Origin: Thermoanaerobaculia bacterium
GTDB lineage: Bacteria; Acidobacteriota; Thermoanaerobaculia; UBA5066
Assembly: GCA_022071945.1 (NCBI GenBank)
Contig: JAJVIN010000022.1
Span: forward strand, 1 to 64,000
Direction of reading: 5' to 3'
Length of the DNA: 64,000 nucleotides
Position numbers and translations under genes: made by a program. Position 1 is the first letter of the stretch. Every line of letters starts with the position of its first letter. Below the pieces are notes generated by a model, which worked only from the letters and a program-made list of their open reading frames with translations, made no database searches and was not told where the DNA came from. Shown piece by piece: positions 22,577 through 25,392 of the stretch.

Positions 22577-24169
22577 TCACAGATCCACCACGTAGAGTCC
22601 TGCCTCGTCCCACCGTATCGCCTCCTCGATGGCCGTCACCAGGCGTTCCCGGCCGAACCTTTCTACGTAGGAAAGCGGCGTCAGGATACGCTCGGCGAGC
22701 TTTCCCTCGGGCAGGATGGAGGCGAGGAGGCGAGAAGCGGCCCGGTGAGCCTGTTCATCGGCCCGACCAGCCGACTCCGCGAGCTTCTCCGAGAGCTTCC
22801 CGAGCGCGAACTCGAGGTTCTGCCTCGTGGCGTCGAGCGGCTTTCTCAGGTTCGGGTCGACGGCCAGGATCTCCGCCCGCAGGGCGTCCAGATCCGCAAG
22901 GAGCCGGCTCTTGAGCTCCGCGAGCTTTCCGAGCGGGGCGGCTGAGCTCGATCTGCCCTGCTCGATGAGGAGCGTCCTGGCTCCGCGGAGCGCGGTTGCA
23001 AGGGACAGCCCGGATTTCGCGAGAGCCCTTCGGGCGGACGGCTCGAGAGGGAGGATCATCGGGCGCGGCAGGATCACCGGCGGGACCAGACCCGCCCAAT
23101 CAAAGAGCGGGAACATCTGGGCCCAGTAGGCGACTTCGGCGGGCCCCAGCACCGTGGCCGCGATCGGGTAGAGCGTCGAGGCCGCCAGAGGCCGGGCGAG
23201 GGCCGCAAAGGAAGGCAGCCAGTCTCCGGCGGCGAAACGGGAGAGCACTTCATCTTCCGTCCATGTGCGCTCGGAAGGATCCCCCTTCAGCCAGAACCGG
23301 CCGTCTTCCTCGTGAAGGAGAAGCCGTTCCGACGCCGTGATCGCAAAGAGCGGCAGGGCTCGCCGGTCGGACTTGACCTGCAGGTCGAAACCGGCCGCGG
23401 TGAGAGCCTCCGCCCTTCTCGCCAGGAGTCCTCTTACGGTCTCCCGTTCCTTCACGATCCGGCACGCGAGGGGAACGAGATCGGGTTTGTCCTCGATCCG
23501 GGCGGCGTCCGCGAAGGCCAGGGGACGCGGGGCCAGGAGCCACCCCAGCGAGTTGCGGAAGGCCTCCAGGAAGGTTCCCTCAGAAGCCCGGCGAACGAGC
23601 TCTCTTGCGTCCTCCGCACCCGGCGCGGCCGGACTCGTCAGGAGCGCCTCGAAGTCGATCCGGGGGACAGGCAGTTCTCCAACGGGATGTCTGTTGGCGG
23701 CGAACGATTCCGGAGATGGTCCCCTGTCCTCGGCCCCAGCGGAGGCCGGGACCCAGAGCCTCGTGACCTCGACGAGATCGTGATCCTCCGAGGCGCACCA
23801 GAAAAGGGGAGCGGCGGGGACCGCTCTTTCCCCGAGCTCGCGTGCCGCGGCAACGACAGCCAGGGCCTTCGTGAGGGTGAGGAGGGGTCCGGTCAGAAGT
23901 CCGCACTGCTGGCCCGTCGAGATCGCAGCCTGCCGTCCCGAGGTGAAGGGCTCGAGCAGGGGGCCGGCGGACGGAGCTCGCCTCGGCCGGTACGCCGCCA
24001 GGACGGACGAGACCCTCTCCACCACGGCCGGGGCGCCGGGAAGGTCGGGCAGAAACGGCCGGACAGAGGGATCCCCTTCCGCGTAGAGACGGGCGAGGGG
24101 AGACAGAGCCGGAATCTCTTCTGGGGAGAGCCTCTTCTGTGCCGGGTGCTGGGGCGAAACGGGATTCAC
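22577..24169 (-). CDS. bshC: Bacillithiol synthase, putative cysteine-adding enzyme (step 3)
   Basis: A 530-residue protein matching BshC (539 in Bacillus), which adds cysteine to GlcN-malate to give bacillithiol. Recognisable blocks are STGQQCGLLTGPLLTLTKAL (positions about 87-106), FWCASEDHDLVEV, VLGPAEVAYWAQM, PRPMILPLEP and the C-terminal PQHPAQKRLS-to-PLSYVERFGRERL layout. A nucleotide-binding-like core followed by a long coiled-coil segment is expected and visible (LKSRLLADLDALRAEI). The start is GTG 24169, which overlaps the upstream methyltransferase stop by four bases. The longer upstream reading frame is not coding. Confidence 0.95.
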   Translation of the reverse strand: MNPVSPQHPAQKRLSPEEIPALSPLARLYAEGDPSVRPFLPDLPGAPAVVERVSSVLAAYRPRRAPSAGPLLEPFTSGRQAAISTGQQCGLLTGPLLTLTKALAVVAAARELGERAVPAAPLFWCASEDHDLVEVTRLWVPASAGAEDRGPSPESFAANRHPVGELPVPRIDFEALLTSPAAPGAEDARELVRRASEGTFLEAFRNSLGWLLAPRPLAFADAARIEDKPDLVPLACRIVKERETVRGLLARRAEALTAAGFDLQVKSDRRALPLFAITASERLLLHEEDGRFWLKGDPSERTWTEDEVLSRFAAGDWLPSFAALARPLAASTLYPIAATVLGPAEVAYWAQMFPLFDWAGLVPPVILPRPMILPLEPSARRALAKSGLSLATALRGARTLLIEQGRSSSAAPLGKLAELKSRLLADLDALRAEILAVDPNLRKPLDATRQNLEFALGKLSEKLAESAGRADEQAHRAASRLLASILPEGKLAERILTPLSYVERFGRERLVTAIEEAIRWDEAGLYVVDL

Positions 24170-24945
24170 GCCCCGTGATCGTCCTTGAGCGCCTCGGCCA
24201 TCAGGATCAACCGCGGAGACCGCTTCGGGTTGAACGGGGTTCCGTCGAAATCCCCGAAGGACTCCAGAACAAGGAATCCAGCCTCCTGGTGGAGGATCCG
24301 GAGTTCCTCCTCGCGATAGACGCGGACGGATTCCCGGTAGGTCTTGGCGGCGCCATCGGGCTCCATCGTGATCTCTTTCTCCAGGCGCTTTCGGGACGGG
24401 TCGTACCAGCGGCGAATCGAGACCCTCTCCCCCGCGATCGTCTTCTCCTCGTACTGGACGAGAGCCGACAGGACCCGCTCCGCGTTGAAGAGGTCCGAGA
24501 GAAAGACGCCTCCCGGGACGAGGACACGGCGGATCTCCTCGAGGACCGCAAGGTCGTCCATCGGGTCGTCGAAGTAGCCGAAGGACGTGAAGAAGTTGAC
24601 GACCGAGCCGAAGACGCCCGACTGGTAGGGCAGCCTTCGCATGTCTCCGCGCGTGTAGCCCGGGCGCGGCTTCGTGACGCGCCGTCTCGCGGCCCTCAGG
24701 AGGGGGAGCGACAGGTCGAGTCCGGCGACTCCGTAGAAGGAGTCGTTCAGGGCGATGGCGTGGCGTCCGGTGCCGCAGGCGAGGTCCAGGAACCCGACCT
24801 TCCCGAGCCGCGCGTAGGCGGCCAGCCGCTCCACCGCGAAGGCAGCCTGGATCTCGGCTTCCTGCTCGTCGCGATTCGGGTAAAGGGCAAGGTACTCCTC
24901 GCCAAACCAGCTGGCCCACCAGGGGTCGCGGAGTTCTTCCGGCAT
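24166..24945 (-). CDS. Class I SAM-dependent methyltransferase coupled to bshC (candidate N-methyl-bacillithiol synthase)
   Basis: A 259-residue methyltransferase with motif I LDLACGTGRHAIAL (about 53-66), motif II GLDLS, a PYQSGVFGSVVNFFTSFGYF block and the post-motif FLSDLFNAERVL. It opens with PWWASWFGEEYLALYPNRD. Its stop is fused to the GTG start of bshC (4-nt overlap), implying coordinated translation. In Chlorobium a SAM methyltransferase (NmbA) makes N-methyl-bacillithiol. By position and family this gene is a good candidate for the same role, but that is inference. It lies 42 bp downstream of atpC and may be read from the atp promoter. Confidence 0.85.
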   Translation of the reverse strand: MPEELRDPWWASWFGEEYLALYPNRDEQEAEIQAAFAVERLAAYARLGKVGFLDLACGTGRHAIALNDSFYGVAGLDLSLPLLRAARRRVTKPRPGYTRGDMRRLPYQSGVFGSVVNFFTSFGYFDDPMDDLAVLEEIRRVLVPGGVFLSDLFNAERVLSALVQYEEKTIAGERVSIRRWYDPSRKRLEKEITMEPDGAAKTYRESVRVYREEELRILHQEAGFLVLESFGDFDGTPFNPKRSPRLILMAEALKDDHGA

Positions 24946-24987
24946 GGGCCGGGACGAAGATAAGAGAGTCTTTCCCAGAGCCCTATC

Positions 24988-25392
24988 CTATTTCGAGGCG
25001 GCGATCGAGAGACACGCCTCCACGAAGGCCGCGTCCTCGTTCACCTCGGTCAGCTGTTCGACCCCGACGACATCCATCCGCTTTCTCTCGAAAGTGGCGA
25101 GCTCGCGCCGAGCGGCCGTGGTGTCGACTTGATCCGGACTGACGGCCCGGTCCGCCAGGACCCGGACCGTGTCCGCCGCGATCTCGGCAAACCCCTTGCG
25201 GACAGCGACGGAGCGCTTTGCCTGGCCGTCCCGGTAAGTGACGAGCCCGACTCCGAGCAGCGTGATGAGGGGGGTGTGCTTCGGGAGGATTCCGATCTCC
25301 CCTCCCTCGGCCGGGAGCGTCACGGAGTCACACGTGATCTTGTCCAGCACCGACTGCTCGGGCGTCACGACGGTCAGTGTCAGTTTCTCCAT
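24988..25392 (-). CDS. atpC: F1 ATP synthase epsilon subunit
   Basis: A 134-residue subunit of the F1 central stalk. The N-terminal beta-barrel is clear (LTLTVVTPEQSVLDKI, VTLPAEGGEIGILPKHTPLIT), with the C-terminal helical hairpin TTAARRELATFERKR. AGGAGG stands four bases before the ATG. It is last in the atp cluster, separated from atpD by 188 bp containing several perfect palindromes. A methyltransferase gene follows. Confidence 0.97.
   Translation of the reverse strand: MEKLTLTVVTPEQSVLDKITCDSVTLPAEGGEIGILPKHTPLITLLGVGLVTYRDGQAKRSVAVRKGFAEIAADTVRVLADRAVSPDQVDTTAARRELATFERKRMDVVGVEQLTEVNEDAAFVEACLSIAASK

Follow-up and report, generated by a model that had tools for sequence, protein, structure and literature searches.

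A predicted NmbA-type bacillithiol N-methyltransferase gene linked to bshC in Thermoanaerobaculia

Gene order and overlaps at the bacillithiol locus

The stretch of DNA analysed here (64,000 nucleotides, referred to as the window) is part of a 6.17-Mb genome which, among named organisms, comes closest to Thermoanaerobaculia MAGs of the phylum Acidobacteriota (64% protein identity); the class membership of the genomes surveyed below was likewise inferred from named Thermoanaerobaculia relatives. The minus strand carries, in this order, atpC, a methyltransferase gene designated here nmbA, bshC, bshB1 and bshA (Table 1), the three bacillithiol biosynthesis genes of this genome being thus located on the same strand directly downstream of nmbA. 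An earlier note on this DNA had delimited the methyltransferase ORF exactly, its strand being added here, and had recognized bshB and bshA in the same stretch, both of which score well above their family cut-offs. The gene lying between nmbA and the bshB-bshA pair was assigned to bshC because of this position and of its PF10079 match over the curated Pfam cut-off, and not on the basis of TIGR03998, for which the match (E 1e-67) did not reach the NCBIfam equivalog cut-off. In most BshC proteins of the class, the alignment to PF10079 does not begin until about profile position 50-86, their N-terminal part being divergent.

Table 1. Features of the nmbA-bsh locus in the window.
Feature	Product or description	Coordinates	Strand	Evidence or remark
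nmbA	NmbA ortholog, predicted bacillithiol N-methyltransferase, 259 aa	24166..24945	-	ORF, Pfam, PDB sequence match, signature, tree, AlphaFold model
GTGA overlap	nmbA stop TGA (24168-24166) and bshC start GTG (24169-24167)	24166..24169	-	
bshC	cysteine-adding enzyme, 530 aa	22577..24169	-	PF10079 E 4e-40, over cut-off; TIGR03998 229 bits, below cut-off 265.8
bshB1	bacillithiol biosynthesis deacetylase, 251 aa	21661..22416	-	TIGR04001 267 bits, cut-off 182.5
bshA	N-acetylglucosaminyl L-malate synthase, 375 aa	20537..21664	-	TIGR03999 501 bits, cut-off 273.7
TATCTT	-10-like box, candidate promoter, 11 nt upstream of nmbA start	24957..24962	-	TATCAT similarly placed in relatives
atpC	ATP synthase epsilon; upstream neighbour conserved within the family	24988..25392	-	outside bacillithiol pathway

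The earlier note had described the methyltransferase as fused to bshC by a GTGA overlap. The overlap is real, whereas a gene fusion is ruled out by the two separate ORFs that share these 4 nt. ATGA or GTGA overlaps also form the nmbA/bshC junction in most relatives, and within the window the GTG start of bshA overlaps the bshB stop in the same manner (GTGA, 21664-21661). The 4-nt nmbA/bshC overlap suggests translational coupling of the two genes. A consensus scan of the operon, the TATCTT box included, called no sigma-70 promoter. In the window and in several relatives (L003-L010), a TATCAT-like box stands a short way ahead of nmbA, possibly marking a promoter whose transcript has little or no leader.

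Relationship of the methyltransferase to characterized NmbA enzymes

Pfam searches with the 259-aa protein retrieved Methyltransf_25 (E 4e-16) and Methyltransf_11, in agreement with the class I SAM methyltransferase proposed earlier, and the motifs expected for SAM binding in this class are present, i.e. motif I (VLDIAxGxG-like), the acidic end of beta2 and the YF of motif V; specifically, FLDLACGTG (52-60), D77 and Y124-F125 align with motif I, D86 and Y134-F135 of the Chlorobaculum tepidum enzyme (CtNmbA). The best match among all PDB sequences was 9RI2, the crystallised CtNmbA (E 1.3e-31, residues 8-253), followed by 1wzn with an E-value of 2e-15. Alignment with the Chlorobium NmbA, the check that had been proposed for this gene, extends over the full length with 33% identity in 251 columns (single-comparison E 2e-36), values which exceed the published ortholog criteria for NmbA, namely E 1e-20, coverage >80% and identity >25% (PMC12719100). 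The candidate N-methyl-bacillithiol synthase of the earlier note is thus recovered as an NmbA ortholog by sequence, with 9RI2 ahead of other PDB entries by a wide margin. On the other hand, the Pfam domains are only generic, no NmbA family appeared in the NCBIfam search and the best matches there were far below cut-off, which leaves some room for an unrelated housekeeping or secondary-metabolite methyltransferase that merely happens to adjoin bshC. The identity of the best sequence match and the genomic distribution described below both speak against such a chance neighbour, which we regard as very improbable.

A more detailed comparison relied on signature positions, defined as those conserved in at least 90% of CtNmbA and its Bacteroidota, Ignavibacteriota and Bacillota homologs and in at most 35% of paralogous methyltransferases. 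The window protein carries all 16 of these residues, including R25, R179, K190, E205 and S243, and CtNmbA itself carries 11 of them; as the reference set was itself gathered through its similarity to the clade of the window protein, this result is supportive and not fully independent. A maximum-likelihood tree of 69 proteins left the paralogs on one side of a branch with 99/97 support and the window protein, CtNmbA and a Bacillota (Paenibacillus) clade on the other, the last being represented by Paenibacillaceae homologs with the P. polymyxa sequence itself left out. Placement in an unrelated methyltransferase clade had been named beforehand as grounds for abandoning the proposal; the tree groups the protein instead with NmbA, but an AU test did not reject the alternative in which the class of the window joins the paralogs (p 0.235), so that the tree by itself is not decisive. 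Earlier trees rooted with DesVI, CypM and 1wzn, the PDB outliers, had been dropped because of long-branch distortion, nearer paralogs being used in their place.

The AlphaFold model of the window protein (pLDDT 91.9) retrieved 9RI2 as top match in both Foldseek and VIA-align. However, Z reached 26.0 for both 9RI2 and YunM and 25.7 for CcbJ; with N- and C-methyltransferases of other kinds scoring less than one Z unit away from 9RI2, the fold does not discriminate among them, and structure was set aside for this purpose. For the NmbA-specific cap-domain topology of the crystal structure, this first-ranked but tied match is likewise indecisive, AlphaFold being reported to mispredict that topology for CtNmbA itself (PMC12719100). 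CypM, CcbJ, YunM, DesVI, TylM1 and the glycine N-methyltransferases resemble the window protein in their class I fold and beta-strand cap, the closest of them being near-equal in Z, but they match it with E-values far weaker than that of NmbA and act on other substrates.

These structural ties among N-, C- and O-methyltransferase folds, the specificity drift for which 33% identity leaves room and the indecisive AU test are also the arguments for a methyltransferase that belongs to the bacillithiol locus but modifies an acceptor other than the cysteine amine, for instance the sulfur of the thiol, an S-conjugate of bacillithiol or a precursor from earlier in the pathway. Such an enzyme is clearly unlikely in view of the retention of all the cross-phylum signature residues and of the identical product formed by two NmbA enzymes from different phyla (PMC12719100); the strict dependence of nmbA on bshC adds to this, but counts only against unrelated substrates. 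Taken as a whole, the comparisons make it very likely that the gene encodes an NmbA ortholog, that is, a predicted SAM-dependent bacillithiol N-methyltransferase.

Linkage to bshC and presence/absence of nmbA

A single-sequence scan of the genome contigs gave zero matches, whereas an alignment-based scan did find homologs. In the 120 genomes of the class that were surveyed, with nmbA counted at E < 1e-78, the gene was present in 48, every one of which also has bshC, whereas all 20 genomes that lack bshC lack it too (Fisher p 2e-5, with no correction for the relatedness of genomes); it thus occurs in 48 of the 100 bshC-positive genomes sampled. The clustering with bsh genes pointed out in the earlier note exceeds what chance would give, since nmbA immediately precedes bshC, in the same orientation, in 45 of its 48 carriers. 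The remaining three are cases at contig ends: a bshC fragment follows nmbA right at the end of the contig in G368, the nmbA match stops 66 bases short of it in G059 and the bshC match starts 33 bases from it in G365. Among named loci elsewhere, the adjacency recurs in Gemmatimonadota (17/17), Planctomycetota (three) and Hydrogenedentota (two), and is absent from 29 Bacillota and eight Bacteroidota-Ignavibacteriota loci, although the bshC profile, derived in the main from loci with this adjacency, may overlook remote BshC homologs. Linkage across several phyla independently supports nmbA as part of bacillithiol metabolism and, together with the absence of the gene from genomes lacking bshC, argues against a chance neighbour. 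The constant company of bshC fits an acceptor derived from bacillithiol and speaks against unrelated substrates, not against bacillithiol derivatives.

Two groups of genomes show other arrangements. Holophagaceae-like genomes (f34; L150-L165, L126) encode a protein of the NmbA clade, but their bshC match is no more than weak and split (E ~1e-9), and no bshC was found adjoining the NmbA-clade gene. Three genomes of genus g100 (G149, G173 and G210; L193) encode an NmbA-like protein on a long branch, and no bshC match was obtained in G210, which is ~100% complete; the long-branched g100 proteins may consequently use another acceptor.

In the family of the window, atpD and atpC are located just upstream in most loci examined, and three members (G001, G003 and G008) keep the atpD-atpC-bshC order with nmbA gone. 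A leader with a TATCATCG box and an upstream terminator-like hairpin directly precedes bshC in G008, and precedes nmbA in its congener L010. Comparison of the G008 locus (L061, 2540-2760) with the region upstream of 1501 in L010 places the missing nmbA between an intact leader and terminator-like hairpin and bshC. In congeners, GCGATGAC or a near copy of it starts both nmbA and bshC, a short repeat possibly behind the nmbA deletion. That the gene is dispensable in these relatives would be compatible with a decayed or inactive NmbA in the window, retained only through its co-translation with bshC. This we find scarcely credible, given an intact ORF with the SAM motif LDLACGTGRH and every signature residue, and given that the examined relatives without the gene show no degenerate copy of it, the absence being outright.

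Predicted N-methyl-bacillithiol synthesis and its implications

To our knowledge, N-methyl-bacillithiol has been measured in few organisms only. In vitro, CtNmbA and its counterpart from Paenibacillus polymyxa (PpNmbA) methylate bacillithiol in its reduced but not in its disulfide form, and neither glutathione nor glycine yielded a visible product (PMC12719100); deletion of CT1040, the C. tepidum gene, abolishes N-methyl-bacillithiol, bacillithiol appearing in its place (PMC6282198). The window protein resembles CtNmbA (CT1040, 9RI2) in its full-length homology, class I fold and conserved cap-domain and SAM-site residues, and in being encoded in a genome with bshABC. The two differ in gene arrangement, the C. 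tepidum genes carrying scattered locus tags (CT0548, CT1419, CT1558 and CT1040) whereas nmbA of the window overlaps bshC and appears to form one operon with it and with bshB and bshA. As to Paenibacillus NmbA, of which the P. polymyxa enzyme (PPSC2_19805) has been assayed, Paenibacillaceae homologs are 34-41% identical to the window protein and share its side of the tree versus the paralogs, but the Bacillota loci examined have no bshC within ~6 kb.

If the operon is expressed as its layout suggests, BshA, BshB and BshC would build bacillithiol, the final step joining cysteine to glucosaminyl-malate, and the NmbA ortholog would then move a methyl group from S-adenosylmethionine onto the cysteine alpha-amine of bacillithiol, yielding N-methyl-bacillithiol and S-adenosylhomocysteine. 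The 4-base overlap probably couples the translation of NmbA to that of BshC, the enzyme which completes the predicted NmbA substrate. The lineage of the window is therefore predicted, on these sequence grounds, to make N-methyl-bacillithiol. A search of the genome of the window for a bacillithiol disulfide reductase (YpdA/Bdr, TIGR04018), which would reduce the oxidised thiol, gave no match at cut-off. This result, the moderate identity to the assayed CtNmbA and a BshC that scores below the NCBIfam cut-off and diverges at its N-terminus count against the proposed role. It is tempting to speculate further on a physical BshC-NmbA unit which methylates bacillithiol as it is made, in lineages that would hold almost only N-methyl-bacillithiol and whose BshC, with its divergent N-terminus, would be adapted to this task, the nmbA-less sisters making plain bacillithiol; on balance, we consider this extended scenario unlikely.

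The chemistry of NmbA and its occurrence in part of the Acidobacteriota are already known, and what is new is the operon arrangement and the on/off pattern. The main texts of the two NmbA papers leave gene clustering unmentioned, with no reference to operon or synteny in PMC6282198 (2018) and none to operon, gene cluster or synteny in PMC12719100 (2025), which makes the clustering and the presence/absence pattern additions of the present work. NmbA was reported in about a third of bacillithiol-positive Acidobacteria (PMC6282198), and most Acidobacteriota with a bacillithiol pathway were said in 2025 to lack it (PMC12719100); the proportion of bshC-positive genomes with nmbA found here refines the latter statement for this class. 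Finally, species of one family that either have nmbA between atpC and bshC or lack it there cleanly provide natural pairs for probing the role of the methyl group, N-methyl-bacillithiol being predicted in one species and bacillithiol in its neighbour.
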